The position numbers were made by a program, and so were the translations under genes. Under the pieces are notes generated by a model. The model was not told the origin of the DNA and made no database searches. It saw only the letters and a list, made by a program, of their open reading frames with translations. From Tribonema minus (taxonomy: Eukaryota > Sar > Xanthophyceae > Tribonematales > Tribonemataceae): a DNA stretch of 64,000 nucleotides. The stretch covers positions 806,001 to 870,000 of the forward strand of contig JAFCMP010000212.1 of the NCBI GenBank assembly GCA_017506865.1, given 5' to 3'. Shown here piece by piece: positions 3,001-59,989 of the stretch (position 1 is its first letter; each line of letters begins with the position of its first letter).

Positions 3001-6000
3001 TGGCCTGTCAGAGAGGAGGGAACAGGCCTCCGCTGCAAGGTTGGAGCATCTGCAGACCGACAAGCTTACTACAGAGGTACCTCACTGACGAGAGTTGACA
3101 CTTCATGGCTTCACTGCTGCTGAGATGTCCGCTAAGAGGCACGCTGGTGTTTCAGCATTCAGGGGCAGTGATACATTTCCAGCACTCATGAACTGTCAGC
3201 CTTGTAGGAGAATCATGAGATGGCAACCAAAAATATGAATATACTTTGACGCACAGTTGAAGCGTGTTGGTGATATTGACTGCAGATGAGATGGCAGAAG
3301 ATTTGGATCAATGCTCGCACTGGCATCATGTCAATGCCTCTACATAATCAAGTACTCCTGTGTTCACCCGGTTAACTACTTAACGTCGACGTTTGCTTGG
3401 AGCTGAGGCCACAAGGAGGCTGGCTTGCCACATAGCGTTGACAGTGACATCCCACCCCTACCTGACTTGACTGATTGTTTGATCTTGCGGTCATAAGGAA
3501 GGTAGCTCGCCACACATTTGTGCTACTGACATAGACATGGCGGAGGTATGTATCAGCAGCGTTGACACGTGCTGCTTGTACAGAAAAATTGGCGTAGTGT
3601 AACTCAACACATTGTGAGGTCAAGTCTTGTCGAGCACCACGTGATGCCTGTTAGGCGCATGTCTCGCGTGCTGGTTTTTAATGACCACTTCTCACCCAAC
3701 ATATGACAGCAGCGAGTCATTGTGTCTGCTGGGGTTCCATGGCTGTCCATCTCTGGGACAGCAGTGAGCTGAATGCCCTCAGATTCAGCCATGTTGATGT
3801 TCTGCTTCTACGTTTTCGTCTTGTGATCAGCTTCAGGATGTAGTTTGCGTCATTCGCGGAGTGGTTCCATCCTCTGTAAACATGGACCATGAGGAAAATC
3901 CACAGATCGGCTGCAGAGCTGTAGATCAGGGTCCACAATGCGGGGCAAGTGGTCAACTGCTGCCCAAAGTTCCCTGGCATATAAAACTTTGTGTACAAGC
4001 TTGAAGGCGTCATTGTTAGTCTATCAGAGCAGCCACAAGCTTCTTTTGTCAGCCATGGAGCCTTGCATGCGGGAGGGGGGGGGGGGGGGGGGGGGGCGTT
4101 CTGTAAGCACGTCCAGGGTGGTTGGTAACTGTGAGGTCGTGAGGCAGAAGACAAAGCATGGTTTGTGATACATAAAGTCGCCTGTTTTTGTGGCGGTCGC
4201 GATGGCCGGTGCATGCAATATGCCACTGCGATGAGGCCTCATGAGCTGCACACGCTTTGCACTGGCAGTACACGACACCATGTGACATGCCACATTGACG
4301 TGTCAATGACATTGACATGTCAACCACACAGCGCCAACTGTGGCCTGATAAATCACCCTGCTTGTGTCATCTGCCTCTAATGCTGCCCGCAGAGGCGGCT
4401 GCAGGCCACTCTATCATCTCTCAAGGCAGAGCAATCTACCAAAGAGAGAGCTGTCGCCGAACTACGCGCGCTACGCGATGAGGGCAGGCAGAGAATTGGC
4501 GACGCAGTGGAGGAGAACCGGCGCCTGCGACTGAGCCTGGCACAAGCGCACAAGAACTGCGTAAGGTGGGCCAGGGTAACAAAAAAAAGAGTCAACTAAT
4601 CTCACGTACTCTGAGATTCTCAGTGTTGAGTAAGGGTAGAAAAAACACAAAAACACTAATTTCACGTATTTGGAGGTTCTCAATGTTGAGTCTGCCAAAG
4701 GTGGGCCAAGGTAACCCTGTTGGATGATCTCACCTATGTTGAGGTAGTGTTGAGCGGGGTAAAAGGTGCAGTCACCTTGATCCTCCCACTTGAGGTAGTG
4801 TTAAGAATCGGCGACGCTGTGGAGGAGAAGCGGCGCCTGAGACTGTGCCTGGCACAAGCGCACAAGAACTGCATTCATTTGATATAAGGTAGGACAGGGT
4901 AAAAAAAGAGTGTTAACTAATCTCACGTATTTTGAGATACTTAGTGTTGAGTCAGGGTGAACAAAAACTCGTCGACTAGTTTCACTTTTTTTGAGGTACT
5001 CAATGTTGAGTCTGCCAAAGGTGGGCCAGGGTAACCCTGTTGGATGATGTCACCTAGGCTGAGGTAGTGTTAAGCCGGGGTAAAAACTCCAGTCAATGGA
5101 TCGTTTCACTTGAGGTAGTGTTGAGAATTGGTGACACCGTGGAGGAGAATCGGCGCCTGTGACTGAGCCTCGCACAAGCGCACAAGAACTGTGCAAGGTG
5201 GGCCTCAGTAAAACAAGCCAGTGGGATGATTCAATTTGGTAGGACTTTAAATTAAGGTAGTGTTGAGTCTCGATCGCCGACAAAACTGTCAGGGCAGGGT
5301 AAAAGGAAGCTGTCAACTGCACCTGTCAGAAATTTTCACGTGCTTTGCGGTGCTTAGTGCTGAGTGTCAATTGCCTACGAAACTGCCATTGTGCAAATAA
5401 AGCATAAGGTGTTTGGGATATTGGTGTTGGTTGCATGCTGATGCTCATCTGATGATGCAGGTAAAAGTTTGCTGCGCACCAACACGCATTGCGAAGACCC
5501 CAGGGGTAGCGTAGCCACTGGGTAGTAGCTTTCATAAACCCTCAGTCACCACTCTTCATGTCCAGCGCACCAAGGGGCTTACAGACTTGTAATTCTGAGC
5601 AGGGAGGTGGCATTTTTGGATTTGCAGACGACTGTTCACTTTTCCCTGTGTGGCAGACTTGAGCAACCGACAATGTAGTTCACCTTTTGCATACACAAAA
5701 CTACTCACATACAGGGGGCAGGTCATTTGTGCGGCATATTGAAGAGCGTCTGCCTACTCGGCTGTTGTGGGCATTGCACCTCTCCGAGCCCGGCGCAGCG
5801 AGGGGGGTGAAATATGTTTTCCTGCTTTTCTGGTAGGCCTGGTGAATTGCTTCTCTGGATAGTGTTGCACATAGTCTTCAACGATAGTATCTCAGTGTAC
5901 ACACGGTGGACGCGGCTTTGCTGTCAGAATGTCTGGCAGCTGTAGGTCTGCATGCATGACACGCATCCCGAAATATTCAAAAGAATGGTTAACTGCGTTA

Positions 6001-9000
6001 CCACGCATCCCGAAATATTCAAAAGAATCTGATGTAACTTGTCGAGACACGTCATATGGCCATGCAGGGAAACGGAACGAGCAGCAAAGGCTGTAGCGGA
6101 GGCGTCCACATGGGAGGCTACTGCCAGAGACGCACGCGAGAGGCACGCCAGAGACATGACTACAGCCATGAAGGATGCCAATCAGGTCAGGCATTTGTCT
6201 GAGCAACCCCAATGACTGAAGATGGGGCAGGACAATTTTTAGACTTTTGCGTATGGAGCTCTGTCTGAAAGACATGGTGTGCTGTGCGATGTGGTTCAAT
6301 AAGTGTCGGACACAAAGAGCGGAATCATGCATCTGCAGGTAAGCATGATGTAAGCTGAATCCTAACCCTAACCCTAATCCTAGCCTTGTGACAATAGTAC
6401 GTGATTTGGGCAACGTCAGCCGAATTTGCTTGCCAGCACTCAAATGCATGCGTCTGAACTGCCATGTATGCTGTGATTGATTGAGGTGCATTGCGCAACA
6501 TGCGCGATTGCTTGGAATGAACTACATGTGTTTACATCGCCGTACAAGGGCGTCAAGGGAAGTTACTTCATTCAAGGTATCTGTTGCGCATGGTTTGAAA
6601 GTTGTCATTTTTGGCATCATGCAAAAAAAAACATTGAGGTTGTATTGTGGTTGTGTGAGCCTCGGCCTGTTTTCGACTCTTTCAGCTTGCAACATCATCA
6701 CACTCATTGACAAGCACGCACTTAGGACATTGGCAACTGCAAAGCAGTGGTGCGCTCAGATTGTTCCCTGCCAGGTATTTGTGCCCGGTGCAGCCCCTTG
6801 ATCTAACATCCAGCCAAACGAGATGCTTTGCTCCCATTGCGTGCAGAGGGTGCAGGAGGCACTGGAGCGTGCCTTCGCGACTCACAACGACAGCAGCTCA
6901 GCCATGGCACGAGCAGTGCAGGACGCTGTGCACGAGTGGACCAGAGACAGCAGCAACGCTCAGGTACTTGTGGACTTGGTTTTTATAAAGGCCAAGGGAG
7001 GCCGGGTTGCCTATGCAATCAAAAAATATGCTTCAACGCAGCAGCCTAGTCTGCACTGCGCCCTAGGAGCTTGGATACCGGCGCTGCAACACAGTTCTCG
7101 CTCCGCGCGTATACGCTCAGGTACATACGCCGCCTGTGCGTCATAGACATGCGTTCGTGCGTGTTATGTTCATGCCTATATCAGCATAGACATGCCTTTG
7201 TGCACATCCATAACATGCATGTGCAGCAGCGCAGCAACGCTTAGCTACTTACCCTGTGCGTTTTCGTTTCGGCTGTCGTCAACTTTTGCTGAGCTGTGGA
7301 GGTGCTGTCTGCTCAGAAAAGACCCTATTGCCTGCCTGTGTAAGTGAAGTCCACGAGTCTTGTGCAAGACCTTGCAAGCAAAATGTAGCCGTGATGTATA
7401 CGCACTGAATTTTTTTCTTTGAGACCCGTGTGCAGTGCCCTGGTCACACTGAGGCGCCCTAGCAGCAGCAGACCATTCCTTGAAGACCTAGCAGGTGCAG
7501 GCAGCGGCCCCCTCACGAGGTCGCTGCATCGTAGAAAGGCCTTTGGGCAAGTGCATGGCGTGTCATTTGTCGTAGTGCAATCGATTACTTGCAGCACGCA
7601 TGAGGGCCAGTCCACGGCGGCGGCGCACGTCAAGCGCACCATGTGACTACAGCCCTATTGTGTTGCATGCACGCAACAGTCAGTCAGCCTGCTCGGAATT
7701 CTGTCTTACCGCAGCGCATGCACATCATCCACTACGCAACAAACATGCGCCACGCTCACCTCTCACACAGATGTAGCAACACCTTGGCATGACTGGACAC
7801 AGGTCTGAGGTAAGAGCCGGACCCTACTTGCAGTTTACCCCAACCCTATCCCTGATACTAACCCTGCTCAACGTAGCACTGACCCAAATTACTTAACTGT
7901 CATTTGACAACCGTTCTTTGCAGTCTTCGCGCGGCAAATCAGGCCTGCCGCGGCGCGCGGTGCACACGTTCCAGACCATCGCCGCGACCCTGGACGCCAC
8001 AACCCAATCCGCCGTTCGAAAGTCGCGGTGGCTGGAGTGGGATGCGCGCCGCCTGCGGCAGCTGCTTGCAGCTGAGAAAATGCGCTGCGAGGAGCAGGCG
8101 GCGGAGATCGCGCGGCTGGCAGGGGTGCTTGAGGTCACGCAGCGCGTCAGAGCCGCGGCAGCAGCTGCTGCAGAGGGCGGAGAAGGTGCGTACTGGCAAT
8201 TGGAGGCTGCGCAGCAGATGGCGGGTTGACGGAACGGGGGGTAACAAACTGTGTCCTTGTGTGCAGTGTTCGATTTCTGTGCGCCGATGATCTCCATGCA
8301 TGCGGAGCAGGAGATGGTACGTCCTGGAAGCCCATCTGTAGTTGGCTTGGCGGTCAGTGACCGATCGAAAGTGTAGGTAGCGCATGTGTTGCACGTTTGA
8401 CACAGCACATGTGTACGCGAGCTGCGAGTTGCATAACTGGCGTTTTTCATAGGGTTTCTGCAGTGTTTCCGCCCTTCAAGCGGAAGTAAATCAAGTACTG
8501 GAAATCAGGGGCTGCGCAGCAGACGACGCACTGACATAATGGGGGGTCACAAACAGTGTCATGCGTGCAGTGTGGCATGCTGTGCGCCGATTGTCCCCAT
8601 GGAGGCGTTTTAAGACTGTGTGCAGGTTTTTGCAAGCAGCCTAATGTCAGGGTCTTGTAGCGTTGCAGGCTACATTGCGAGCTGTGCCTACACCTGCACG
8701 CACAAAACACCCAGGTCGAGTGATGAGGAAAATCTTTTTTGGGTGCATGTGCCTTTGTGTATTTGCCTTGAGTACATGACCACTACCACCCCCTTTTCGT
8801 GCAATGGCATGTGATCACGCCAGCTGCAGAGTGCACAATCTTCAGCTGCTCTATTCTCCTGCACCGTTGCTGACCCAGTCAACATGACCCCCTATCTCAA
8901 TTGCTTCTGGCAGCAGCATCTCTGCTCTACTTGGAGGAGCGTGTCCAAACCCTGGCGCAGGACCTGTTGGATGCGGCCGCTGCAAGAGCAGGTAGGGGCT

Positions 9001-12000
9001 GTTTATGTGATGAATGTGGTGTTGACAAAGTTATGAAGTGTGGCAGCTGCAAGAGCAGGTACATGGTGCTGTTGTTGTGACGAATGTGGTGTTGGAAAGT
9101 TGTGAAGTGCAGCTGCTGCAAGAGCAGGGACATGGCGCTGTTGTTTTGATGAAAGTGGTGTTGGACAAGTTATGAAGTCTGGCCGCTGCAAGAGCAGGTG
9201 GCGCTATCGTTGTAATGAATATAATGTTGGACAAAGTGTTGTGAGGTGCAGCAGGTGCAAGAGCAGGTACGGCTACTGTTGTGATGAAGTGTGGCGTCGG
9301 ACAAAGCATGAAGTGCACAGCATGATTTACTGCTTGCATGGACATGTCACAGGAGAGGCAACATGCAGACATCGTTGCTTGGCCGGCCGAGATGCTTTCT
9401 GTTCAGCATACTCTATGGATAATGCACACAGTTAAGATCACATGATATACACTATGGGAAGCACATGGTGCTCTGGACCTGATGTGAGTAGGTCAAAGTT
9501 CTTGGTTGCATACATTGTGTTCCGCGCACGCCGAGTAATGTATGGCCTTGCAACAGTAGAGACAGGTGACCTCACTCGTATCCCACGCACATCATGGTCG
9601 CATTGCATCATCACTTGCACTGACTGTCACAGCTCCAGCCACCTTTCCTCCTTGGAAAGCTACGATTGCAAGGCACGCCATTACCATAGCAGTAGAGGAA
9701 GCCGAGGCGCTGGAGGCGACTTGCGCAGCGTAGACAAGGGATCATTCACAAGATGCACAAACCATGTCGGCGGAGACTTCCCCAGGTGCGGGGGGCATAA
9801 CCTTCCTAGAACTTGCCAGAATGTGTCATAAACTTCTGGGAGCGATTAGCGACTCAGGAATGCATCACATTTCACACCACTCGCCTTGACTGACGATCCA
9901 GCACGATCACTGTCCGGCGTCAAACAGGTGCCGAAGTCAAGGCTGCCCAAGCCTTGGAGCACGCCAACGCAGCACAGTATCCCAGGCACATCATGGTCGC
10001 ACTGCATCATAATTTGCACTGCCTGTTATAGCCCAAGGCACCTTCCTCGCCATGACTGAGGATCCAGCTTACTCTTGTGCTGCATTTTAACAGGCGCCGA
10101 AGTCAAGGCTGCCCAAGCCTTGGAGCGCGCCAACGCAACGCAAGCCGCAGCGCGCAATGCCTGTGCCGACAGAGATGGCGCTGCTGCCAAGGCCCACGCT
10201 GCCGCCGTCTCAGCCGCTGTCGCCAGCAGCGGCGGTGCCAGCGACACGGACCTGAGAAAGGTGCGGTGCATGCCATGTCGACTTTACACTTTTGCTGTAT
10301 CTGTGACTCGCATGCCCGGAGTGGAATTGATGTGCACATTAACAAATCTTCGAGCTGCTTGCTGGGACATTACTGTGTGCGGCGCCGCATCTGTGTTACA
10401 TGCGCAGACTTCATGCTGAATGAAGGCGGCGTATTGGCTCGCATGCTGTGTGTCCATGTTGAGATTCTCATCTTCTTGCCATTTGGGGTATGCAGACGTT
10501 GGTCAGAGATTTGATCTGCGCCTACTCAACATTGCGCCTGGCAGATACATACTCAGTGTTAAATCATCAGTCGCAACTGGGTGTGCGACTCAAATCTCAA
10601 CTTTGCTGTCAACAGAACTGTGTACATGGCACGTATATGCAGCATGCATGTATCAGTGTCGTTTTATCAGGAACCAGCATTTCACATTGTCCGAAATGGC
10701 CTTCTGCTGCAAACTCATGTTGTTCTCATTCCGCTCTTCGTGCTGGCTGCAGTACCTCTTGCAGAACATTGAGAGCTGGTGGGAATGTGAGTTTGCCCCC
10801 CTCTTGGGAGGCCTCAAGCTGACACCACAATCAGCCCCGCAAGATGAGCCTACACCCCTGTTTGGGGGTGAAAGGACCCCCAATGTGGGGACCCCATATG
10901 CCTCGCAACATGGGCGCACCCCAGGGACAACACCATTGATGGAAGGGCATAGTATGGGGACCAACACGAGAAACACGCCAGCTTCAGGTGAACCGTGCAC
11001 TTCAACAACAATTTTGGCACTCTGCGAATGGCACAGGTGATGAGGTTTGTGTGCGAAGTGACGTGGATGTTTTAACATGCACGGCAGGAATTGCTTGTTA
11101 GGCGTTGAGTGCGCTGTCATGAAGCTGGGGGTTGAGAGCACCGTGCGACACTGCCATGTGTCTTCAGTGCACTCCATTCAGGGTGCGGCTTCGCAGTCCA
11201 CTGCAGAGCCGCTGTTGAATTGCCATCCTAGGGATTTATCATGACTGCAGTTGTCACAGAGGTGGCATCACCTGACGTTCCTTCGTGATGGTAAGCCTAA
11301 GTATGCAAGCCTTTCAAGTCCTTCGCAGCACACCGGAACAACCCTCACTTCATCATTCAGGCTTGTAGCAGCCAGGTTGTCTTGAGAGTTATTGCGCATT
11401 CGCCATGCCATCAATAGATGGGACCTATGTGGTCCTTGCAGCCAATGCGCGTGTTAGTGCAGAATTGGTGACGGTGGTATATGACAGTTGATAGAGCACT
11501 GCTGATTGACTTTACATGAGTGAGCCACCAATACAGTGGCACCTTGGTATGTGCCGCTGTTGCGAAGTGTTGGCCAGTATGCCACACGTAAGCTTAACCT
11601 CGTTGTCAGCCTTCATGCATATAGTGTCACCCGCTCCTTGCGCAGTCACTTGATCATGCTGTGCGTGACATGCATGCGGGAATGATTCACCATTTGCCAC
11701 CGGCTGCAAGACTTGTGCGTGTTGAACGAATCACCGGTATGGAAAGCACTCGACTGACTGGTCGTTTCCTGCCGAGCGTTGCCCCTTACAGCATGCTAAC
11801 TCGGTATCTCGATGACACAGCCGCCTCACATCAGCAGCAAAGCGCAGACTACACTACATGCCTGCATACGCATCTGCTTCCGCCATGTCACTGTCGGAGT
11901 ATAAAACCTACACACCCTACTTGCACCAGTTCAGTACTATTCAACCCTGTGTCAGGACTGTTTCCTCCACTCGCACAAGCACCTGCACATAGGCACATGC

Positions 12001-15000
12001 AAGTACAGTAGGGGCGCGAAGGTTTCGTACTCCGTCAGTCACTTTCGCGCTCGCGACTGCGGACGGCAACCTCAAACAGGCGTCGGTCTCGGCCAGCCAA
12101 CGAGGAGCCCGTGTGTGATGACTCAGCGAACTAATTGAAGGCAGTCATATGCCTGGAAAGCAATAAACTGACTGGTTGCATTCTCCTGAACGTTGCGCCT
12201 TACAGCATGCTCAGCATCTCAATGACACAGCCTCCCCATATCAGCAGCAAAGCGCAGACTGCACTACATGCCTGCACATGCTCCTACTCCCGTCAACTCA
12301 CTCACGCGTTTGCTGCTGCGATCGGCAAAACCTTGAACAGGCGTCGGTCCTGGACAGCCAATGAGGAGCCCCGCTTGGAGCGGCGACAAAGCGCAGACTA
12401 CATTACATGCCTGCGCATGCACCTACCTCCTCCAACTCACACACTCACTCGCGGCTGCGGTCGGCAATCTCAAACAGGTCCCGGACAGCCAATGCGGAGC
12501 CCTGCCTGGGGCGGGGACCTCCAGCTGACACCCCAAGACGCGATGGCGGCAGCTCTCGTGGCGTCGAAGCTCGACGCCGTGCAGCACGAAGGCCGCCTCG
12601 ACAGGGCAATCAGGGCCAGAGACACAGCCGCAGCGCACGCGCGTGATCTACTTGCCCTGCTACAGCAGCAGCAGCAGCAGCAGCGGAGTCGCGCTAGCGG
12701 TGGTGCTGGCAGCAGCAGTGCAGGTGGTGATGGTGGTGGCGTTGCAGGTGGCGGCGCGGACGCGGTGCTGCGCGAGTGGGAGGCGCTCGCGGCGGAGACG
12801 GCGCGGCTCAGGCAGCAGCTGAGCACTGCGCAGGTAAGTGCTGTTGCTTCAACATGAGTTTGATGTTCTTACACGGCATCGCTCATTGCTTCGCGAGCAC
12901 ATTGCACCGGCCACCTCCATTGAATGGATCATGTACAGACTGACATGCGCTGTGCAGCAGACCAATTCTGATGGAAATCGCTCCAGTTGTTCACGAGATG
13001 TGCGTGCTTGAAACAGTGCAGCTGTCAGCAACTGTGAACCACATCGTACACGACCGCATGAGGTTGTTTTCAGCAGGCATGTGCAGCGGCATTGCGGTCA
13101 CGACCAGCTCGGTTCTCTGACATGCATCGAGGAGCCGGGGCGCATGCGCTGCAGACGGAGCATCCCTTGTCTCTACGACATCATGCTTGCCCTTTGTCAC
13201 GTGAAATGCCGGTCCAATCACAGCTTGCTCGTGCGCGTCAACAAATGCAGGGGCAGCTGACGTCGATGGGAGCGCAGGCGGCGCGGCAGGCGTGCGCCAT
13301 GCGGCAGCTACGAGCGCTGTGCGATCGCCTCAGGGCCGACGAGAGCAGGGCCCGCGAGACCCTGGCGGATCGCCTATCCGGCGTGCGGCAAGAACTGGGA
13401 CGCAGGTTTGTCGTAAGTCAGGGTGCTAGTGGTTTGGCCGCAAGTGAGACAGACCGTGCGGGATCGCCTATCCGGTGTGCGACAGGAACTGGGACGCGAG
13501 TTAGTCATAACCTACAGGCTTGTCATGGACAGCGTGCTTGTGGTTGGCTGGGAACGGGATGGCCCAGTCAGGATTGTGTGGTGGTGTCACCCCCATACAG
13601 CATAAGATATACTTCGAAGTACTGTGCTAAAGCGTACTTGGCCGGTGTGCGACAAGAACTGGGACGCAGGTCTGTTGTAACTCAAGGGTGCTAGTGGTTT
13701 GGCCGCAAGTGAGACAGACACTGGCGGATCGCCTGGCTGGCGTGCGACAAGAACTGGGACGCAGGTCTGTCGTAAACAGGGTGCTAGTGGTAGTGTTTGG
13801 CTGCAAATGGATGGCCCAATCAGGATTGTGTGGTGATGTCACCCCCCCATGCAGCGTAAGCAGGATAGGACAGCTACAGTGTGTTCACTCCCGCTTTGGG
13901 TTCGTCATGACACCGCATTTCAGCATATGGGTAGTGCTGTGCGATCGCCTGGCCGGCGTGCGGCAAGAACTGGGACGCAGGTTTGTTGTGAACAGCGTGC
14001 AAATGATTTGGTGCAAGTGAGGCGGACAATGCAGGAGTGCTCAATGGCCTGTATGCGGTGTATTTGAACATATGGGTAGTGCTGTGCGAGCGATCGCCTG
14101 ACCGGTGTGCGGCAAGAGCTGGGACGCAGGTCTGTCATAAAACAGGGTGCTACTGTAGTGGTTTGGCTGCGAGTGGGATGGCCCAACCAGGATTGTGTGG
14201 TGGTGTCAACCCCATACAGCATAAGATATACTATACTATAGCGTACTTGGCCGGTGTGCGGCAAGAGCTGGGACACAGGTCTGTCATAACGCAGCGTGCT
14301 AGTGTTTCGGTGCGAATGAGACAGACCATGCGGGACAGTTTGATGGCCTCGCTCCCATGCAGCATAAGCAGGGGAGGCGAGCATGTACTGTGCTAAGGCG
14401 TACTTGCTCCAGATTAGGTGTGTCATGGGCACTGCAGTTGAACCCTTTTGGGCGCTGATAGTTTGACATGCCGGCACCATCTTGACTCGTCACCATCCTC
14501 GCAACCTTGGCGGTCTTCGTACTGTATGAAGTGCAATGCGGATCAGAGCGCTGCTGCGATCCGTAGCTTTGCTTGTACTTGTGCAGACACCGAACAGAGG
14601 GCACATAATCATGGACTGTTTTCTATGTTTTTAGGCTCATCGTCAACAAACAGGTTTGTTTGATGTTCAGTAGTAGTATCACCTAAGATGGCAACCCATT
14701 TCCTCATCAGCAGCGTTGTCAACATGTATTAGAATATCATGTGCTGATGACAGTTGTGATGCCTCTCATGTTGAAGTAGCGGTAATGAAGCCGAACGCGT
14801 TTGCTCGTTTCGTGCAGGTGCTCTGCGCAGCTAGGCGAGGTCAAGGAGACCCTTGCAGAGGAAAGATTGCGCTTCACACGAGAGGTGAGACGCAGCTCAT
14901 ACTTTGAACGGTGCGGAATTCATAAATTGAGACATGCAGCAAGTGTGTGTAGTCGCGGTCTCTTGATACTGTTCGGGAGTGACACGTCAAGATATATGCT

Positions 15001-18000
15001 GAATGTTCGTGGTCGCGGTATCGTTGCCAGAGCACAAGGTCGTCGCCTGCAAGCTCTGTGTATCGGGGAGAATGGCTGTCCAACGTGATGAGCATGCTTG
15101 TTCAAGCACTGAGAGCGTACTGATGCTGTGTTCGTCACAGCTAAGTAGAGTGCAGCAGGCTTGCAAGCTGACAGCGAGGGCATCTGAACGCACTGGAAAC
15201 ACTGAGAAGTGCATCGGAATGTGGTAATGCTGCACTGCTGCCTGATCATGTCAATGCAGTCCAGCCACTCGTGACATGAGTGTGGATTCGCACATTGCTT
15301 CTTCCAAGTTTTTTGATCCAGCTGACAGTCTGCGAGCAGCAAATCTCAGAGCTGCGCCTGCAAATGTGAGTTGACACCCATTGAAAGCTGCGGAAACTGG
15401 CGTAGGTGTCATTACAACATATTGAGATCAGTAATGAGCCAGCGTGGAGCACACAATTGCTGATTGTGCCTAAGGTCTAGGCCGCTCTTGGTCTTTGCCA
15501 CTTAATGAAGCAGCATCACACACCGCAACACGCAACTGATCAGTGATCACTCCGAGGCCTTGCAGAGCACTTGAGGTATGACCTCTCCCGACTGTGCGTA
15601 CTCCTGTCGCCATGAATACATACCACCAAAGCGCGTGCACATGATGTTTGCTTTGTGCCATGCCTCACCTCCTTCAAACCCTTTTACTTGGCGGTTGCGG
15701 CTTCCTCACCCGACGCGCTCGGGTGGCGGCCCAGACGGCTGACACGATGCGGCTGCAAGCAGAGATCACGCAGCTGAAGTTTGGGTTGCGCTTGAAGTGT
15801 GCACCCTTACAACTCTATACACCCCACGTGCCATGAATACATGACATCAAAGGATGTTCGTGTGATGTGCCTCACTTCCCTCGAACTGTTTGGCCTGGCG
15901 GTCGCGGCTTGCTCATCGCTCAGGTGGCGGCCCAGACGGCTGAGACGATGCGACTGCGAGCAGAGATCACGCAGCTCAAGCTCAGGTTGCAGCCAGCGAG
16001 TGCTCGACCCGGCCAGACACCAGGTACTGTGTGCTCATGTGGATGTGGTGCTTGCGTGAAGCCTGACAGGCGTTGCGATGCTTCAATGTAGCGAAGCACT
16101 TGTGGCACCAGGAGAGTACTGTAGCTGACTGCAGATTCGCTCATGCAAATGTAGAGTTCCGAGCCGGAACCGGCTTAGACGGTTCCGGCTCGTCTAGACG
16201 GAGAAGACGAACAGACGGAATGTCAACACACCGTCTTTTCCGTCTTTTCTCAATACAGCTTTAATGGCTTGTATAACACTCCAGCAGACATGTGGCTCAC
16301 GTACGATGCCAAGGCAAGAGTGCTGATGCACCGCTACTACGCGCTGCTTTTGCTTTTCACTTTTTCGGTCTTACTTCACTTCAAGTTTGAAGTGCGTGTG
16401 GTCGTTATCCGTCATCGCGTGTAGGAGTGTGTGCTTGGCTGTGTAGGTACCCACGAAAGCTGTGTTGCGCCTACACGAAGTAATCAGTTCACGGTCAAAA
16501 TGAAGTAGGTGAAGTAGGTGAGTCGGCGTGGCAAGGCCGTCTTAGACGGAAAGACGGTCGAAGACGGTACAGCCCCGTCTAGACGGAAAAGACGGATGGC
16601 GGGCTAAGCCGTCTGCAATTAAGACGGTCTGTGGGACCGGCTCGGAACTCTATGTAAATGGTAGCTCGTCTTGTGGAAGGGACACCAGTGGGGGCGGGTG
16701 TTGGCGGAATGCAGGCTTAAGCTGGTTCATTCTGCATTGTCAATTTTTGCAATATACGTCAAGCAAAGTTGCTGGCTGAGACACTGTCAGAGGAGCTGAT
16801 GTAGCTCCTCGCTCCTTCAGGCTGCCAGTGAAGAAGTAGCGAAACATCACATGTTCTGGTCAATACGGCCCTGTCCACCGAGCTTCAATGCGCACCTGAT
16901 GAATTTGCCCCAGCTCCACACAATGTAACAGCATATGCCATGGCAATTGTGTCGATGTGTTGCCTGTGCTGTCAGAAGGGGATGAGAGCCCTGCAGGGGT
17001 GGACCAGCCCCCTTCTCACTCCCTTGAGAATGGGAACAAACTCAACACGGGCTTGGCAATTCAAGAAGACAGAGACAGGTGATGAGCAATGCTGCCTGTG
17101 GTAAGGCTAGTTGCAGTTGGTTGCATGTGCAACCCTGCAAGTTGCAGTCCACGTATAGCAGCACAAAGAATTGTAGGTATTGACATCGGTCAAAGAGGCT
17201 GAACTGGCCGTGGGCTGGGCGACGGAATGCGATGGATGCGAAGCGCACAGATTCGATGCCGCATGAGCACCGGAAAGCAATCGCAACTGCAACAACATCC
17301 TCATGGGGAACGGCTGCACTGAGTTGACGCCCCATGATGATGTCGGCTTAGCGTGCTGCGCTCTGAGTGAGCTTGAATATCTGGCGTGCTTCTGCTTCTC
17401 TAAAGGCAGTTTGAATTGGCCAGCCAGCATGACGACGGAAACCAAAGCATGTGTACTTTGAATCGGCATTCACGTGTTGGCCTTACCATGTGGTGTCTGC
17501 TGCACAGTGCGTCATGTGTCAAAGGCGCGCTGTTAGCCTTGCTGAGCGATGAAACCTACATTGCCTCAATTTAATCGGTGTGCTTCTCCTGGAAGGATGC
17601 CAATTTTCTTCTTATTGGTGTCATGTTCATGAATGTCCATCAAGCGGCCAATTAGCGAATTTGTCCCACACATGCAGCCAAAGCGCGCTGGCCCTTTTGA
17701 GCGCCGCTTTGATGTGCGCGTCGCTGATCTAGCTTCATGTGCTCTTATGCAGGCTGCAGCGGTCTTTGAAAACTACTTCTATGCCGATTTTTGAATGTTT
17801 GGCTTGGTGTTCGTGACCGTCCGCCAAGCGGCTAATCAACAAATCATCGCACTCACGCAGCGGATGCTCAGTCTGCTCCTCAATCGGCATCACATGCTAA
17901 TGTGCGTGTCTGACATAGCTTCATGTGCTCATACGCAGGCTGCAGCGGGTTGCGGCGGACCTGGCAGAGCAGTTGAGGGTTGAGCAACGCGGCAGGCGCG

Positions 18001-21000: not shown

Positions 21001-24000
21001 CTGCTACGCGCTACAAGGCCCAGAGCGGGGGCATCATTGTCATCTGGCGTTGGTGCAGGTGCGTGTGCGGCATGTCACCTCATACTTCAACTACATGCCT
21101 CTGTAACTGTCAAGCATGTCCAGTCTTGCGGCGAACCAGCAAGTTGCCTGGGTCATTGTCGTGCATGATCGGTTCTTCCTGGTGACTGGCATGGACATGA
21201 GTGACTTGACTGGTCGTGTTTGTGGGTACTGCGCAGTCGCAGAGGGCACAAGCCGTGTACTTTTGAACTTAACCGCATCGTAACAACAGTATGTATGGGC
21301 ATGCTGTGCACTTGTGAACTTCATGCATCATTATTATAATGTAGATGTACTTCTTTGTATTACCCTGCAGTGGATGTCCAAGCACAATCGTCAATGCAAG
21401 CACGTGCTTCCAGACAGTGTGCATATCTGAAGCTTTGCACCAGGCCTTTGAAGCCATCTGTCACATTGTATGTCCAGCACCCAGACTTGCAACACTTCTT
21501 GAAGTTGCTGTGCTGGACTGCACTGCACGATGTGCTGCAACTACTGCAGCCATTATTCTCGGCCATGTGACCTGTATGACCTGAACAGGAGGCCCGACAC
21601 AAATCTCTCATCGGAGAAGGGCATGTCTTGATGTTCAACAATAGGGTTGCCGGCACGTACAACGCATATACGTCAGAAGCATATGAACAGTACGTCACAT
21701 ACATTGTCATGTCGATTTCAACATACGCTTTGGATAGATCATCAATGCCGCTATGACGCGCTGCACAATGTCCATACTCTGCAATTTATGGAATGATATT
21801 ATCAAGCGAACCGACACAACTCCCCTCATCGAATCAAGGGCACATCTCGACTTTCATCACTGCCGCTGCGGGTGCCCTGCATGGTGTTTGCGACAACGCC
21901 TGGACCAAGTGATCTGGACATATATACGTTGTGTATATCGTTATAGTGATGTCAGAATACGCGTTGGATACATCATCAATGCCGCTGCGGGTGCCCTGTA
22001 TTTATTGTGTTTGCAGCAGTGCCTGCTCCCGGACCAAGTGATCTGGAGGCCTTCGATCCCTCGGTTCCCGCTGCAAAGCTGTGGAAGAGGGTCTCCGATC
22101 AGACAGCCATCATCCACAGCCTCGAGCTGCAGCTGGCTGAGGCGGTTGCTGGAGGAGGGGGGCAGCGCTCGACAGCTGCACGAGATCACCGCGATGCTGA
22201 AGATCCGATAGGTGACGCAAGCAGCAGGAGCATGTTTTGGTTTGAGTTCATGGTGCAGTGGCAGCGACTTGAGACTGTCCACTTGTCTCAAACTCACATA
22301 GTATACAGCAGCAGCTGACACCTGTACAATTTAGGGCGTCTGCGTCTGCATGTTTTGGCAGTGAGCATCTGGGTGCCTGTGCTTGTCAACAAAGCCAAAT
22401 GCTATGATGTCAAAACACTTATACCTCTAGAAGTATGTATGCTTCGAGCGCGCATACAAGCATGCCGGTTCTGTGCTTCATTAAGACCCAGAGACACCCA
22501 TAGGAGTGTGCACGATGCTTGCTGTTGTTGCTGTCTACTGCTGTTGGAGGCTTCTGCAGTCATGTGTGGAATACTGCAGTCACGCATGGAATACTAACAC
22601 CCTCCTATCACCCTCCTCATCTTAACATCTGCACCCCCGATGTGAGCAGGCGGGTGTCCCGTATGCGCTGCCCTGAGGGAGCAGCTGCGCGATGCTGAGG
22701 CGAGGCGCATCAAAGCAGAGAGTGAGCGCGACACAATCGTCACCAGTGCTCAGCAGCAACGGGAAGACCCAGCCGCACAGGCGGCAGCAGAGCGAGAGGC
22801 TGCCAGGTACACTTCCTTGCCATGCATGTTAGATAAGCAATAACACTCAATTTGCGTCGCGAGGCGCATCAAAGCAGATAATGAGCGCGACACCATTCTC
22901 ATCAGTGCTCAGCAGCAGCAAGAAGACCCAGCAGCACAGGCGGCAGCAGAGCGAGAGGCTGCCAGGTTCACTTCCCTGCCATGAATGTCAGAAACAGAAT
23001 TGCAGTCAGTTTGCATGGCAGTCAGGCATCAGTGCCAGTGCTGTGCATGAGTGAATGTCAGAATCAGTGTTGCAGTCTGTTTGCATGGCAATCAAGCATC
23101 AGTGCCAGTGCTTGTGCAGGTACGATGCCTACCCTAAGCCCTAACCCTACTTTTGGGCGCCACACGCACACATGTGACAGCTGCAGGGCCGCTTCTCATC
23201 TCCACATGATCACACTTCCCGACCACGAATCTTACATACGAATAGGGTTGCCAAAACCGTACCTTTTTTCACAAATATGCTCCGTAAATCGTACGGTAAT
23301 TTGACCGTAAACTCCTGCCTATTGAGGTTTTGGAGAACTTCGATACCATTTTTGCGTCTGGCACAGTAAGCCCGAAGATGAACCTCAGGGCACCCAAAGC
23401 TGTGGTCAAGATCAGCATAGTTTACGCTACAAATACCGTTGACCGTATTTTTCTAATACCGTTTTGGCAACCCTACATACGAATGACAGTCGCTTTGCGT
23501 GGTATCAGTGCCAGTGCTTGTGCAGCGCAAACAAAAGCACCAGGTGCTATGGTGTTTGCAGCGCTTATCAGTTGATCATGAGGTGTATGGGTGCATGCTT
23601 GTACGGACATGTTGTCAATTCAATGCTGATCGCACCTTGTGATGTCTGGCGTGAGGTCTACGCCAAACGCTTGCTGCTAGCGCCTGTTTAGCAGCACGTA
23701 ATGATGAACTTTGACCGAAGAACCACGAAGACCAGTTATGTGGCCTGCTTTGCTCACGTCTCGTTTGCGCTCTGTCCGTCTGTGAAGAAAATTGCTAGTA
23801 AGGCACGATACCCACTGCACACTGCTTCGTTTCAGGACCAGGCGATAACGCCAGGAATATAGTCAATGACTTGAACATGCGGTTGCCTCAGAACTTCAGA
23901 TGTCAAAACATGCAAGATTGCATCAGACGGTGCGCATGCAAGATCAGTCAGCTCAGCGCGCAGGCATTAAGTGACGCTCCTATGATTTGATGACCAGCTG

Positions 24001-30000: not shown

Positions 30001-33000
30001 ATTGGTGGAAGGCACTTGCGGCTAACCATCCCTTGTCACCCAGAGCTCTACGATCTTTTGATTCGTTTTCATATCCACATATTGCCCAGATTGCAGCTGC
30101 ATTTGACTGCAGCAGTGCATTCGCACTGGTGATGGCACATTCATATGTGCAATTGTATCTTCGTGCACCGGCTGTGCTGTTCACAAGGCGCCTTGCACTA
30201 CCCGCTGCGCATTGTCATGATGTGACATGAAGTGTGGTGGTGCTACCCACTTCAGGGTTAGGGCTAGGGTTAGGGTTAGGGTTAGGGTTAGGGTTAGGGT
30301 TAGCCACACATGGCCCACCGTGCAGGGTGTCTCCTCCAAAGCCATCGCTGTCGTGAACCGTCCGCATCGCTGCACGGCCGGACAAGAAGCGCAATGCACT
30401 GGGCGGGCCTGCATAATTTTTTTTATTCGTGCACCGCACTGCGCTTCCTTTCTGATATCGCGTCTCTGTGCGCTAGCTACCTGCCTCAATTGCATCAGCT
30501 ATTGATGCATAAGGTACTCTGCGCTCACCCCCACTTCATGGCATTGATATGCAGGCGACCAAGCTGCGGTCGCAGCTAGCCGCAGCATCAGCAGCGCTGA
30601 AAGCCAAGCCCACCAAAGCTGACATGGAGGCACTCGTGCAGGAGGTGGATCAAGCCAGAGCTGCGCTCGCTGGTGCTCGAGCTGAGGTCAGCACCATGAC
30701 CAATGCAACCCGAAAACCTGTCGCTTGAAGTACATACTTGAAGTATACGTAGCTGCGTGCGCATCTCATATAGCCTCGCTTACTGGTGCTCGAGCTGAGG
30801 TCGGCACCATCGCCAATGCAACCTTGCAAACCTCCTTGAAGTACACATTTGAAGTATACGTAGCTGCGGGTGCATGTTATACAGACTGGCTCGCTGGTGC
30901 TCGAGTGAGATTAGCACCATCACCAATGCCACATGAAAACCTGTAACTTGAAGTGCATACTTCTATTTGAAGTATACATAGCTGCGGATGCATCTCATAG
31001 AGCCTCGGCTTTAGATCTCACATGATGGCACCATCACCAGTGCAAACCTGGAAGTGACTCGAAGTATATGAAAATGTTTTTGTAGCTGCGGGTGCATCTC
31101 CTAGAGGCTTTGCTTTTGATCTTATCACCTGCGCATGCATGACCATTACTAGACGTGGCCTCTTGCTGCTGCCATATTGGCGGTACATTCATGTCCTGAC
31201 GGTCTATTAAAACTCTTTCATGACATTGTTGGCCTGCACTTGCATGTGCAGGTTGAATGTAGGGCACGCACCACAGCAGCACTCATCCTTGTGCCAAATT
31301 TGCATGATTGTTGAGCTTGCACGTGCAGGTTGAACGCAGGGCACGCACCACAGCAGTGCTCAGGGGGGCCCAGCTGGCCGAGGAGGCAAAGGTGACAGCG
31401 CTCAAGTCAAGGATGCAGGAGCTCGAGCTGCAGCTGCAGCAGTCGCAGCGGGACGTGCAGGCCAAGGTGATGTCGAGTTGCAACTGCTGAATCACGCGTT
31501 TGCTCTGGATCGGGACTAGACTAGTGGGCTCAATCTGCAGCGCGCCATGATGTGCCATTGCTTGCCCAATGCACTCCGCCTTTGGCACTGCGAGTCCAGG
31601 TGTTTCTCTGCTCTTTTTAAAAGACTAGGTCGGTTTCTTCGGATTCTCATGGTTTCATCAGAGCGACAGCTAGGCACCATGAAGTGTTGGTGGGGGGAGG
31701 GGGGGGAGGAGGCAGGAGTCGGGGTTAATTTGAGTGCATTAAGGCTGTTCGAGGATTGGCGTCGGCGTTGGTACCTGCTAATGCGGCAAATATGGGCTTA
31801 ATTACTTTAGAGCAGCTGCGTGCATGGGCATATTGGATCTGTAGGGCACAGGAGCACCCAAAAATTGAACGTATTCCAACCTTACTGAGCTGCTATGCTG
31901 GCACCATGACTCTGACTGCAAGCTTTTCAAGCACTATTGACTGTACTTTGCAGGCAGCACTGGCAGCCACTGCACTGCCACGCAGGACCAGTCAGTGTCA
32001 GTCCTCCGATTGGATTTGCATTTGCATTCGAGCTGCTCATTCCGCAGCTTGCCATGTGGCGACCTGCAAAAGACTCGCGCAGCAAGGGGCCACAAGTCGC
32101 TCGCAAGTGTTGAATCTCGGCATGACTGCGATTCTCACGAGAACGTACCAGACTCGCACGAACCACATATAGTCTACTGTACCTATGCTGATGCAGCGAC
32201 ATGCGCTGATTACACCCGCGGCGAATGTGCGTGGTCTGCCCCGTTGTGTTGTGAGTAATTCGCAAGTGATGAATCATGGCTTGACTAAAATTTCAACGAG
32301 AACGTACCAGACACACACTCATCACATATAGTCTACCGTACCGATATGCGCTGATTACACCCATTGCCCGTGCGGCGAACGTGCGTGGTGTGCCTCGTTG
32401 CGTGCGCGCAGACCTCTCTGGAGGCAGACCTGAACATAAAGTCTACTGTATATGCTGATGCGGCGACATTTGCTGTTTACACCCATTGCGCATGCGGCGA
32501 ACGTGCGTGGTGTGCCTCGTTGCGTGCGCGCAGACCTCTCTGGTGGTAAGCGAAGTCGCTCGCAAGTGATGTGACAACAATACTTGTAGGAACGCAGCAG
32601 ACACATGCATGCAACAACACGGTCAAGCAACATTGTGTACGCTTCAAGCTACATGTGCTGATTAAACCTGTTGCGCATACGGCGCATGCGCACGATATGC
32701 TTCATTGCGTGCATGCAGACCTCACTGGTGTCAGACCTAAAGCGCAAGCGCGAGGAGCTGGAAGCGTCGCTCGCCGCAGCGACAGCGCACGCGCGCGCCA
32801 CCTCGGTTGCGCGCGGCGGCTTTGCATCTGCGGAGGAGGCGACGGCCCTCAAGGACAAATTGAAGGCGCTGACGACGGAGAGGGGCAGGCTCAGGACGCA
32901 GGTGCCCACTGATAATATTAATGATTGCAGTACGCGCATTCAAGAGCGCGATCACTAGCTGCCGAACCTCTGTGATGGGCTGCCGGCTGGAGCTGGCATA

Positions 33001-36000
33001 GAACACGTGCGAGCTTTCCATGCTGGACACTCATGCCTCGAACGTTAAAAAGCTTGCACGCAGAAGTCTTTTTGGCTACTGTGGATATGGTGGCGCTGTT
33101 TGACTCGTGGCCAATTGCCGCAGCAGCGGCGACCACGGTTATTGGCGGAAGGCACTTGCGGCTAACCACACCTTGTCACCAAGAGCTCTACGATCTTTTG
33201 ATTTGTGACCATCAATGGTACAATAATTGCATGCAGTGCCTAGTCTGATGACGATGCTGCGGCGACATCACATTGCTGTGCAATGTAACTGCGCTCCGCT
33301 GAGCTCAATCTGATGCCGAAACAGCGATGGCCTGCATGCACGATGCCTGACTGCTTGCTCTATACATGGCTGCACCTTCCAATTACTCAACTATTACTGC
33401 CATGTGTTTGTGTGGGCGCACCATGTGTGACTTGGTGGCAGGTGGCGGAATTGAAAGCTTCATGTGGTGCGGAGCAGCAAAAAGCTGCCGAGTCGGCCGC
33501 AGAAGCCGAGCAGCTGCGGGCAAAGGTCAAGGCACTGGAGAAGAAGGTAAGCAGCAAGGTCTGCATGATGTGTATGAGTGAGACGCATTGCTACTTCTAT
33601 AAAGTTTGCACACAGAAGTCTTCTGACTACTGTGGATATGATGGCACTGTTTGACTCGTGGCCAATGACTGCAGCAGCGGCGACCACAGTTATTGGTGGA
33701 AAGCACTTGCGGCTAACCATCCCTTGTCACCTAGAGCTCTACGATTATTTGATTCGTTTCCATGAGTAATACGGCCATGGCACATTCAAGTCCGTCACTG
33801 CTTGCGTATGACCCCAGTATTGACAGACTCAGTCCCCAATGCAGGCAAGCAGGTGGCATGCAGGCACATTGCGCCTTGTTCACAATTGAATTATGGGCCA
33901 ACGTCTGCCTCAGCCCACCATGTTGACGTTTTGAGACCAGAAGTCACGGAGTTCAAGCCCATTCTGCCTGTCAATGTCAATGCTACAGCGCCAATCCGCA
34001 AGGCCTACAATGCAGGGGGCAGAAGCGTTTGACGTGGCCGGTTAGGTGCCTTCGTGCAGCACATTCTTGCTGCTACATACACCATATCTGTCGCTCTGGC
34101 ACGCTCTAGCTGTACACGCCCAACTAGCCTTGTACAGCATACATAGCATCATGCTGTACACCGCCCCCTGGCTCTTGGAAGATGGGTGGGGTGGGCGTTG
34201 CCATGTGCATCGACAACGTTGAGAACCACAAAGGCCATCTGTGGCTGAGCGCGCTGTGTCAAGCTGAAGTGTGACATTGACAGTACCAATGCTGTTGACG
34301 AACACTCGCCACCATTTGGTGCCCGTGCTGCCTGCAGGTTGCAGGTCTGATGAGCGATGTGTCAGCCAAGGCACGACACTCTGCCACCATTGAACATGAG
34401 GTAAGGTGTTTGTAGCATCTCAGAGATGCATTCCGATGCCTTTGCCCGTCACTCTGCTGTGTCACTGTTGCTGGGTGGTGTCTTGTGGATTGAGCCCAAG
34501 CACGCGCCTGCAGTTGCTGATGCGAGACGACACGCATACATACATACCCGGGCGCTCAGCAAGAAGATCTTTGTCGTACCTATAGCCCCAGCATGGTTGC
34601 CTTACATGCAGGAAAAGCTGACGCGGCCACAACAACTGCATCAGTGCCCTCGGATGCAAGTGAACCGAGCATAGATGACTTCAAGAGAGAGAGCCTTGTC
34701 CTGGGCCCAAGAGTTGTTGTATACCCTGGTGTAGCTCATTTGTTTGTTCCGATGGCCACCGATGGCTGGCTCCATATAAAAGCTCTCATTGCACCTTATG
34801 TGGAACGTGTGGTGAAGTGCTGTGCTCGGAGAGGGCTTGTGCCTTACTGCAACTGCAACTATTGTGTGTGCTGCTGCATGTCACTGCAGATGGCAGCTCT
34901 CAACCAGGAGTTCCTGCAGCACAAAGCCGCCGTGGCAGCCTGGCAGCAGGTACGCACACACAGGCCAATGCAATGTGGCAAGCTGCCTGATCGCATCATG
35001 AAATGGTGTGGAAGGCAGCAGCATTAACTGCAAAGAGGAAAAAGCCCCTCCGCGTTCAAACATGCCCCTCTTCTGGACCACACTTTGAAACTGTGAAATC
35101 GGAGGATGCGAAACCAGGAGATCAAACGTCGATGAAGCTTTGAACTTTACTTGCATGCAGCCATTGCCTTCAAGCATCAAAATTACTTCAGTGGGCATAC
35201 ATCAGCGTTGTGCCAGAAAGCCGGTACATCAAGGGTACAACAAGAGCATAATGCAGAGCTCTACAATCTTTTGATTCATTTCCATGTTCGCTCATGGACA
35301 GTCAAGGCTACGTGTGAACAAAGTCAATTTTGAACAAGCAGATTGACGTCAAGCTGCAGGATTCAATGAGTACAGCAGATGTTTCACCGCTGTGAGTTTA
35401 CTAGGCACGTTGCCTATGCATACCATGAACTGCTGGCAGGGGGTTGCACGACATTGTGGCACTACCACTGTGCAGCCCCACCTTGTGAGTGTGAGCACAG
35501 ACAATTCTGCGCACTTCAAAAAGACTTTCCATGCGTATACTTCGCAGCAGCAACCGAGGTATTGGATTCATAGCTGTTGTTAAGTTGGTGTCTCGCATGA
35601 CATGCACGCACCATCAGTCATGCTGAGACCATGATTTGGCAAGCACTGCACTGCCGGCATTCTCTGACTGAATCACGGATTCTCTTCACAGTGCTGAAAC
35701 GTAATGCAACTTCAGCTAGCACAATGTGTTCGGCTTCAACTTCAACACTTAAAGCCTGCGCACGGCATCATGTCCCGTCACCGTTCACGACAGCCGTTAA
35801 TGCGCTCACTCAAGTGCCTGTCGAAATATTAACTCCGGCGCACGACATCATGTGCCCTCTCCGTTCACGACTGCCATCAGTTCGCTCACTCACGCGAGTG
35901 CCCATCACGCAGGACGCGCACGCGAGCCTGCAAGAGAGCGACCAAGAGGCGGGCCTGTGCCAGCGCGCCACGCACGCCATTGCGCAAAAACTCTCCGCCC

Positions 36001-40541: not shown

Positions 40542-42166
40542 TCACTTGATGCAGCTGCACGGGCATCCAAGGCGGTGCACCGCTTCCAGGTTTAAGCGAA
40601 GGCCGTTGCGCTGAATCACTTCACAAGCCTCTTGCGGCCATGACCCCCAGTGACAGCCCAGCTCAATGGCACGAGCTATGTCATAGCTGTTCCAAGTGCC
40701 CACCACTACCAGTGCGCCGGGACTCTGGGGCCACTCTGCACCCTTCTGCAACAACCACTGCACAACTTCTCTGATGCATTGTAACCTTGGTTGCTTCACG
40801 GCTGTGACCAGGAGCTGCGTTATACCCGGAGCACCGTCCAAGGGCAACTCACCAACCTCGTGCAGCCACTTGAAGGTGGCAACCGGGTAAGGAGCATCCT
40901 CCAACGTGGCCGTGATGATAGCCTGTGCTTCAAAAGGACACATCGGGGCCGTATGCAGCAACTGCAGGACCTCCAAGTGCCCCTTCTCTGCAGCAGTTAC
41001 TGCTGTCCTGGCTGTGAACGGGTGCTGCCCCCCCTGCTCACTGACCCACTTGACAATGTCAAGCTTGCCAGCGTACACTGCAAAGTCTAGCAGGCCCAGC
41101 TCTACGCGCTGTGAAGTTGTTGCAGACTCTTCATAGTAATCCAAAAAGCACTTGGAGACTACTTCAGACAACGTCATGTGGTTCCTCAGCTTTACATGCC
41201 GGACCTCAGGCATGAATGGCCCAAAGAGCTGTGTCCCCTCACTGAGCAGCCACTGCAGCACCTCCAAGCGCCCTGCCTGGGCAGCCCGGTGACAAAGAGC
41301 AGTGGTGTACCACTCTGGCCACGACTTGCGCTTTGCCTGCTGAACAAGCCATGGGAACAGGGCTCGCCAGTTCTTGACGTTCTCCACGGCATAGACGCCA
41401 AATAGCGCCCAAACGCGGCCAACGAAGCTGTTGCACTCATCGCAACGGCTCAGTAACTCGTTGAGAAAGGCCACATTGGCAGTGGGCGCAGCGCCTAGCA
41501 GCATGATTCTGTCTATGCTCATGTCGGCTTCCGTGGCAGCCGCGTCTAGAATTTCCAGGCACGCTGCGCGCCCCACAGCTGTGCGCACGGTGCGGGTCTG
41601 CAACAGCTTGTAGGTGTCACTGCTCTTGGCTGCCATGCGAAGCGTGCTTGTAGACTGCACTGCCGCGCTGCTTATCGAGGTTTTAAACAGCGGAGGTACA
41701 ACATGGCGGTCGGACCAATCATGCACCACGGAAGCCATGTAGCGTCCACGCAGCAACCTGCTCACGCCTGCAACGTACAGCCAGTAGCCTGGCCCAACGA
41801 AACCCAGCACTAGCTCGACAAGCTGCTTATCGTTGAAAACAGCTGCGACACTGCTGTTGGCCAGCAAGCGCGCCTGGCGCTGCTGTGCTTGCGAACCTTC
41901 TCGCTCCTCCTGCTGCTGCTGCTGCTTTTGCTCCGCGCAAAGGCCCGTCACCTGCTCCAGCCGATCCTCCAACATGTCCGCGGCAGCACGCAGCGCTGTC
42001 ACGCCGCGGATGTCCGGAATGGCATTCGCCGCCGTGCGCAGGCCATGGATCTCTGCTGCCACAACATGCAGCTGCTCGTGTGCGCCCTCTAGCACTGCAT
42101 GCGGTGGCAGGTCAGCATCACAGGCAGTGAGAATGAGTTGACGCGCTTGCTGGGTGTCGTCAAGCA
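40542..42166 (-). CDS. F-box/ankyrin gene exon 2
   Basis: Single long open frame. An in-frame GTG lies just upstream of the splice acceptor, but the spliced start is preferred because exon 1 supplies an ATG. Codes for the F-box-like segment and the ankyrin-like helices; ends LGCPCSCIK. Confidence 0.85.
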
Positions 42167-53329: not shown

Positions 53330-53350
53330 GTCTGCAGTACATGGGGTTTC

Positions 53351-53364
53351 CTTGGGTGTAGTAC
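53351..53364 (+). repeat. LINE target-site duplication, right
   Basis: CTTGGGTGTAGTAC; marks the 5' end of the minus-strand element. Confidence 0.93.
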
Positions 53365-59081: not shown

Positions 59082-59089
59082 GGTTATGA

Positions 59090-59900: not shown

Positions 59901-59989
59901 GAGGCAGGCGGCGAGGATCCTACACGGGCTTGCATCGCTCGGGTCGGAGAGTCGCAGGGTGAGGGCACTGCTTTAGTAGCAGCTGTGCC

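Follow-up and report, generated by a model that had tools for sequence, protein, structure and literature searches.

The window analysed here is a 64,000-nucleotide stretch of contig JAFCMP010000212.1 from the xanthophycean alga Tribonema minus (assembly GCA_017506865.1, positions 806,001 to 870,000 of the forward strand), and its positions 1 to 36770 (+ strand) hold the 3' part of the gene JKP88DRAFT_348658, at whose exon-intron junctions tandem sequence copies are found. The deposited protein of this host gene, 1947 amino acids in length, can be rebuilt exactly from 47 exons separated by GT-AG introns; the gene extends over 52.1 kb from window position -15331 to 36770, with 33 of the exons lying in the window and the other 14 upstream of it (-15331 to -508). 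Our own spliced model of the window matched this single protein. JKP88DRAFT_348658 reads as a long coiled coil, judged from its sequence, and no Pfam domain was matched in the frame of its last exon. The deposited exon edges, which represent an annotation but were chosen independently of the repeats, served as the junctions for the tests reported below; 42 of the 65 annotated junctions in the window agree with our own model, while the deposited exons 23, 26, 31, 36 and 39 differ from it. The deposited exons at 8267-8316, 10753-10786 and 21018-21058 are missing from our model or start elsewhere in it, and a well-scoring exon of our model at 24101-24302 is skipped by the deposited one.

Tandem copies within and around the host gene

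Tandem copies were sought by a chunked self-BLAST of 264 kb around the host gene, with offsets of 25-1500 bp between the copies. This search returned 229 matches of at least 40 bits, while a single order-1 Markov control gave none, not even at a threshold of 35 bits; the copies are therefore not due to chance. The offsets of 94 near-adjacent pairs have a median of 160 bp and a 10-90% range of 109-304 bp. The share of bases in tandem copies is 15.6% in the 264 kb, 15.8% in the host gene, 21.7% in its right flank, 10.7% in its left flank, 7.9% in the window beyond the host gene, and 0% in the two retroelement stretches tested, a LINE-like pair of open reading frames (ORFs) and a Copia-type element (see below). 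Since the copies are spread over the flanks and are lacking in the retroelements, they are no peculiarity of the gene and seem to accumulate with age. Within the host gene, recognizable copies make up 15.9% of the intron bases and 14.5% of the exon bases, so that an original prediction made for this DNA was right in seeing the copies but overstated their share when it described the introns as built from duplications.

We grouped matches whose copies lie no more than 400 bp apart into arrays, of which the host gene contains 20; one of these was dropped as a pair of dispersed repeats (33046/33598), leaving 19. An array was taken to cross an annotated junction when it covered at least 10 bp on each side of it. 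Twelve arrays in the window do so (at exons 19, 23, 24, 25, 27, 29, 31 and 32, the acceptor of exon 35, the donor of exon 35, exons 38/39, and exon 44), and four more are located in the host gene upstream of the window. The exon numbers of the original prediction carry no coordinates and were matched by position, its E5 being annotated exon 19 (4393-4565); self-alignment shows tandem or near-tandem copies at most of the exons that it named.

The window arrays listed next are given on the + strand. At the donor of exon 19 (4565), the array at 4492..5216 comprises the exon end, the donor and the start of the intron, followed by two intronic copies that retain the GT at 4888 and 5197, one with an 11-base insertion and the other with an in-frame stop. 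The donor of exon 24 (8991; array 8965..9317) is followed by three intronic copies, two of which have kept the GT, with inner donors at 9197 and 9266; that of exon 29 (13412, or 13405 in our own model; array 13357..14406) by five intronic copies of the exon end, with the GT present in three; and that of exon 35 (20368; pair 20336..20721) by one copy that retains it. On the acceptor side, the AG has been retained in the upstream copy at exon 25 (acceptor 10094; array 9578..10142), at exon 32 (17939; pair 17597..17948) and at exon 35 (20270; pair 19959..20283), and in two upstream copies at exon 44 (32719, with inner acceptors at 32412 and 32534; array 32101..32741); it has been lost in two upstream copies at exon 27 (12478; array 11722..12518) and in the copy at exon 31 (15924; pair 15567..15990). 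At the acceptor of exon 23 (8267; pair 8190..8607, offset 305), an exon absent from our own model, the copy lies downstream of the acceptor. A 159-bp unit consisting of the end of exon 38, its donor and the start of the intron is duplicated at 22700..23031, and the annotation treats the copy as exon 39 (22913-22965).

Three of the named exons depart from this pattern. The E21 array (21576..22047) extends just 9 bp beyond the acceptor annotated for exon 37 (22039), and the E31 array (30656..31109), next to the donor of exon 42 (annotated at 30644), begins 12 bp beyond it; both were counted as non-crossing, although they would cross the acceptor at 22017 and the donor at 30686, respectively, of our own spliced model. 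The AG of the annotated acceptor is retained in the E21 copy, at variance with the loss of the splice signal claimed there, a claim that may have referred to another acceptor. The E38 region (33800-36770) yielded a single weak match at a threshold of 28 bits, situated inside the last exon (36286-36547, 29.7 bits).

The arrays in the window share no sequence with one another, dispersed repeats aside, and the same process is found in other genes of the genome (see below), in keeping with the earlier view of a repeated process and not of one repeat family. Introner elements, in which a single family forms many introns, do not fit these mutually unrelated arrays. Dispersed repeats, recognized from a 330-kb sample only, account for 1790 of the 52102 bases of the host gene. 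One dispersed family of about 170 bp occurs in its introns four times in the same orientation (24338-24472, 29920-30073, 33046-33221, 33598-33772), and 39 further copies, scored among 2561 candidates, are present elsewhere in the genome on both strands with 89-92% identity.

The exons of the deposited model that differ from ours, together with the limited agreement of its window junctions with ours, might raise the suspicion that the arrays reflect misassembly or a wrong gene model. The copies in the host gene diverge by 8-41%, which is unlike assembly duplicates, and the exon edges of the dynein and kinase genes considered below are backed by homology; we regard such an artefact as very improbable.

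Placement of the arrays relative to exon-intron junctions

In the host gene, 16 of the 19 arrays cross at least one annotated junction, against 8.0 expected from random placement. Before removal of the dispersed-repeat pair the count was 16 of 20 against 8.3 (P=0.0007), and the comparison with random placement for which the original prediction had called thus gave an excess. Thresholds between 28 and 80 bits left P between 0.0017 and 0.0033; at 100 bits, 9 of 11 arrays cross (5.3 expected, P=0.015). The excess persists with strong-signal junctions only (15/20 vs 7.7, P=0.0017) and with the 42 junctions shared with our own model (9 of 15 arrays vs 5.4, P=0.04). A per-junction statistic with circular rotation is weaker, with 20 of 92 junctions crossed where 13.2 would be expected (P=0.037), or 10 of 42 vs 6.0 when limited to the junctions shared with our model (P=0.07); the view that junctions are touched only mildly in excess, which had been taken from the per-junction count, was revised after the per-array count. 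All five young arrays of the host gene cross a junction (2.2 expected), as do six of seven in a looser match list (2.6 expected). Copies lying wholly inside an exon were not found in any of the 20 arrays (1.2 expected from blind placement), and a copy holding a whole annotated exon is present in three (3.4 expected), two of these being the copies annotated as exons 3 and 39. Duplicated mutually exclusive exons, in which a whole coding exon is copied with both splice sites, do not account for such numbers, nor is there a coding pattern among the copies.

The host gene was chosen because of its repeats, and independent loci therefore weigh more. These comprise a kinase gene of the window contig and five dynein loci picked without knowledge of their repeats; two further dynein loci (L024 and L025) had been picked since duplicates were hinted at there and were excluded from the independent count. 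Dynein exon edges were set from profile matches and splice signals, with unclear edges omitted (56 junctions in the seven loci), and those of the kinase gene, which was first located through draft models retrained on the deposited gene, likewise from homology and splice signals (19 junctions). Of the 23 arrays at the independent loci, 11 cross a junction where 7.6 would be expected (P=0.08), and 3 of 9 young arrays do so (2.7 expected); with L024 and L025 pooled in, 32 of 50 arrays over all loci cross (19.1 expected). Arrays at exon edges thus also appeared when the scan was extended to other genes, as had been proposed. We consider the junction excess to be strong in the host gene and suggestive elsewhere.

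The dynein genes provide individual cases supported by homology. In one heavy-chain gene (C522), the end of a short exon (...DGLDYLAMG) and its donor recur five times downstream in steps of about 90 bp, and the exon after it has a single copy of its end, 130 bp on; the dynein exon-end copies carry a gap and altered residues. In another (C113), a 1034-bp intron is spanned by tandem alignments that reach both flanking exon edges, the longest with 62% identity. Other dynein loci are poor in arrays: L026 has two, neither of them crossing, L028 has none, and L029 has a single non-crossing one. CCCTAA-like stretches were noticed within a dynein intron array (L024, 3204-3684). In the kinase gene, 7 of the 15 arrays (4.6 expected) cross 9 of the 19 homology-defined junctions (6.0 expected; P=0.13), and one exon end is duplicated with 97.7% identity and an identical donor. 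The kinase search found a paralogue on another contig (P0002) and not the gene on the window contig; at its residues 208, 228 and 250, this paralogue contains three in-frame copies of the peptide that corresponds to the duplicated exon end of the window-contig gene. In the deposited P0002 sequence (residues 208-260, 603-645), in-frame peptide repeats also occur at 603 and 626, and the peptides are single in the brown-algal proteins P0003 and P0004.

The excess at junctions could mean that exon edges are preferred targets of duplication, for instance through breaks, nicks, stalled transcription or base-composition steps at the junctions of transcribed genes, and that introns accordingly grow from their ends. 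The crossing counts of the host gene, including those at strong-signal junctions, point in this direction, as does tandem-copy coverage, which amounts to 24% beside junctions and drops to 9-16% at 400-800 bp from them; the independent loci deviate in the same direction, and the three in-frame peptide copies of P0002, together with the duplicated exon end of the kinase gene, look as if one edge had been hit repeatedly. Against this, the host gene owes its choice to its repeats, the young arrays of the independent loci cross junctions about as often as expected, detection favours pairs with one constrained copy, and young insertions, which were left unmasked in the test, may dilute the deep intron. 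We regard preferred targeting of exon edges as unlikely.

The bias in detection was assessed in a simulation that combined real exons with random introns and forbade whole-exon and within-exon duplications. Of 266 junction-crossing pairs, 82.3% were recovered, as against 63.5% of 1234 other pairs, a 1.3-fold advantage due to slower decay. This slower decay of pairs beside a constrained exon accounts in part for the junction excess in the host gene.

Polarity and decay of the copies

The copies are arranged with a clear polarity. Among the 20 crossed junctions of the host gene, copies lie exclusively on the intron side at 13 and otherwise at a single one, the acceptor of exon 23, which is the sole exception to the rule; the remaining six are those of exons 2/3 and 38/39, two pairs whose copies are both annotated. 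Correspondingly, at 13 of the 14 junctions outside these two pairs the annotated splice site belongs to the outermost copy, which comes first in a donor array and last in an acceptor array. The dynein and kinase edges follow the same polarity with the exception of three alignments (L025 3004-3896; kinase 30934-31598 and 32586-33286), long and overlapping ones with a whole exon in both copies, in which polarity cannot be read.

Between parent and copy, differences amount to 8.4, 5.9 and 18.4% at codon positions 1, 2 and 3; between copy and copy they amount to 14.4, 20.9 and 23.1%. Since the codon pattern is present in the first comparison but not in the second, it is mainly the parent that is constrained, and a constraint on third positions of the copies, as considered from the parent-copy data, was not upheld. 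In keeping with this, exon-derived columns differ by 10.9% between parent and copy, and intron-derived columns by 22.8%. GT or AG has been retained in 20 of 26 copies (two of them inside annotated exons) vs 226 of 385 control dinucleotides (P=0.07). For a frozen parent and a copy that has diverged by 11.4%, simple arithmetic gives a neutral expectation of 0.785, which the observed retention approximates, so that no selection on the copies is required.

The original prediction had also raised a choice of splice sites among the duplicated donors and acceptors, which would supply alternative exon ends. The somewhat higher retention of GT and AG than in the controls, the concentration of parent-copy differences at third codon positions, and the annotation of two copies as exons could be taken to speak for the use of inner copies. 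The third-position pattern is, however, missing from the copy-copy comparison, the copies of exon 19 contain a stop and an insertion and those of the dynein exons a gap and altered residues, and the survival of the dinucleotides is about that expected under neutrality with a frozen parent. There is thus little support for splice choice, and we hold the use of inner copies to be quite improbable.

Intron growth and intron gain

We consider it probable that the arrays arise by tandem duplication that is mostly blind to gene structure and is tolerated where a single junction is copied, so that introns grow. Short tandem duplications, mostly of about 110-300 bp, would arise at many places in the T. 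minus genome, most likely through fill-in and end joining at staggered breaks and mostly regardless of gene structure. Where the duplicated unit takes in a single junction and no more, one copy, namely the first in the case of a donor and the last in that of an acceptor, would stay joined to the body of the exon and would still be spliced, leaving the mRNA unchanged, while the other would turn intronic, lengthen the intron by one unit, and expose its spare splice signal to neutral decay; repeated rounds would then give rise to arrays. We observe directly that copies of various ages occur, that they sit at the edges of exons in several genes, that the annotated sites show a polarity, and that the inner copies lack a coding pattern among themselves; the repair mechanism, the neutrality and the use of the outer sites we infer. 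In seven of ten near-perfect duplications, the excess of the match over one unit lies between -2 and 2 bp (6, 10 and 651 bp in the other three), and these seven show the low microhomology expected of fill-in duplication by end joining. Such near-blunt junctions suit fill-in end joining better than slippage between existing repeats. The most fitting reading is that introns grow through tandem duplication of an ordinary kind that is unusually frequent here, where "unusually" expresses our judgement on a single genome.

Several observations weigh against this explanation. The excess of crossing arrays in the host gene (16 of 19 vs 8.0) exceeds the 1.3-fold bias in detection, and the young arrays cross as well (5/5 vs 2.2). 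Simulated junction crossings fell below the coverage prediction (ratio 0.39), and selection alone should therefore lower crossings and does not give the junction excess. Even between copy and copy, divergence is lower in exon-derived than in intron-derived columns (19.4 vs 28.4%), and parent-copy differences at codon positions 1 and 2 (36 of 505) lie below the approximately 11% expected of a neutral copy; trimming at the alignment ends may produce both of these low values. Finally, the near-perfect duplications number ten only, and repair by end joining is deduced from them.

Intron growth as originally predicted is supported, whereas intron gain by duplication around AGGT is not. In the latter model, described by Rogers, each intron is a duplicated exonic segment whose two ends are copies of one site. 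AGGT is indeed present at many host-gene junctions, as in most introns. When donor and acceptor of the same intron were compared as in-register copies, with 2070 donor-acceptor pairs from different host-gene introns as the null, none of 66 introns (46 from the host gene, 20 from dynein genes) showed similarity beyond chance after correction (best uncorrected P=0.0014), although older gains could have lost their trace. We therefore deem this origin extremely improbable. As described in PMC4974935, AGGT gain according to Rogers and Hellsten resembles our case in its tandem duplication and its AGGT at many junctions, and differs from it in that the units of T. minus take in existing junctions instead of an exon interior, and donor and acceptor are not in-register copies.

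A wider model, gain through duplications that cross an exon-intron boundary, is fitted by one place in the host gene. Exon 3 (-13443 to -13378) repeats the end of exon 2 in frame over 66 bp and is separated from it by a 105-bp intron; the acceptor of this intron is the counterpart of an AG that lies within the exon in the parent. It is plausible, as far as annotation and sequence go, that exon 3 marks a gained intron like that of the potato RdRp gene, where a boundary-crossing tandem duplication, a single event at an acceptor, was documented by RNA reads and phylogeny (PMC4974935). In both, the duplication spans an intron-exon boundary, and here the copy is annotated as a new exon with an acceptor from a formerly exonic AG; in contrast to potato, T. 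minus has arrays in large number, spread over several genes, and most of them do no more than lengthen the intron; they are known from DNA and annotation. Exon 39 was rejected as a gained exon, being read in a frame other than that of exon 38, and is probably an artefact of the annotation.

Tandem duplications of related kinds are on record. In Drosophila melanogaster, polymorphic duplications have a median length of 367 nt (cited in PMC2891723). The novel Drosophila introns treated in the relevant part of PMC2891723 likewise involve local duplications that overlap exons, but the duplications suggested there are without support from conserved flanks, whereas the T. minus copies are visible at many ages. 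The small tandem duplications of break repair, in the part of PMC8355091 concerned with them, are similarly near-blunt and of unrelated sequence; a substrate described there had 50-bp overhangs, while most T. minus units measure 110-300 bp. No earlier reports of exon-edge tandem copies in Tribonema or other algae were found in the literature searched, which did not cover the Tribonema genome paper.

The remainder of the window contains several other elements. A Copia-type LTR retrotransposon at 58816-63511, with two 266-bp terminal repeats that are 99.2% identical, is a young insertion without tandem copies. Two long ORFs of 1762 and 766 amino acids on the minus strand (45800-53389), the first with a reverse-transcriptase match of 29.1 bits vs a Pfam cut-off of 29.6, appear LINE-like by reading of their sequence, and a stretch just past their end matches the host gene at 6964-7116. 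Telomere-type AGGGTT repeats lie within a host-gene intron (30254-30303), and an ORF with ankyrin-repeat matches is found at 40542-42233 (minus strand).

A more far-reaching scenario seems to us possible but rather doubtful: introns might lengthen mainly from their ends by a continuing duplication that favours exon edges and leaves serial decoy sites, some of which are adopted to give a new intron and a new exon. If this were true, the genome would hold a visible series from the fresh copy to the gained intron. For annotation, the arrays carry a warning, as inner copies resemble exons and one copy at least has entered the deposited model out of frame. Few cases have so far supported intron gain by tandem duplication, and the step from a duplication to a stable gene has rarely been seen. 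The small genome of T. minus, with its boundary-crossing duplications of many ages in several genes, could make the tolerance of such duplications, the decay of the spare sites and any adoption of them directly measurable.

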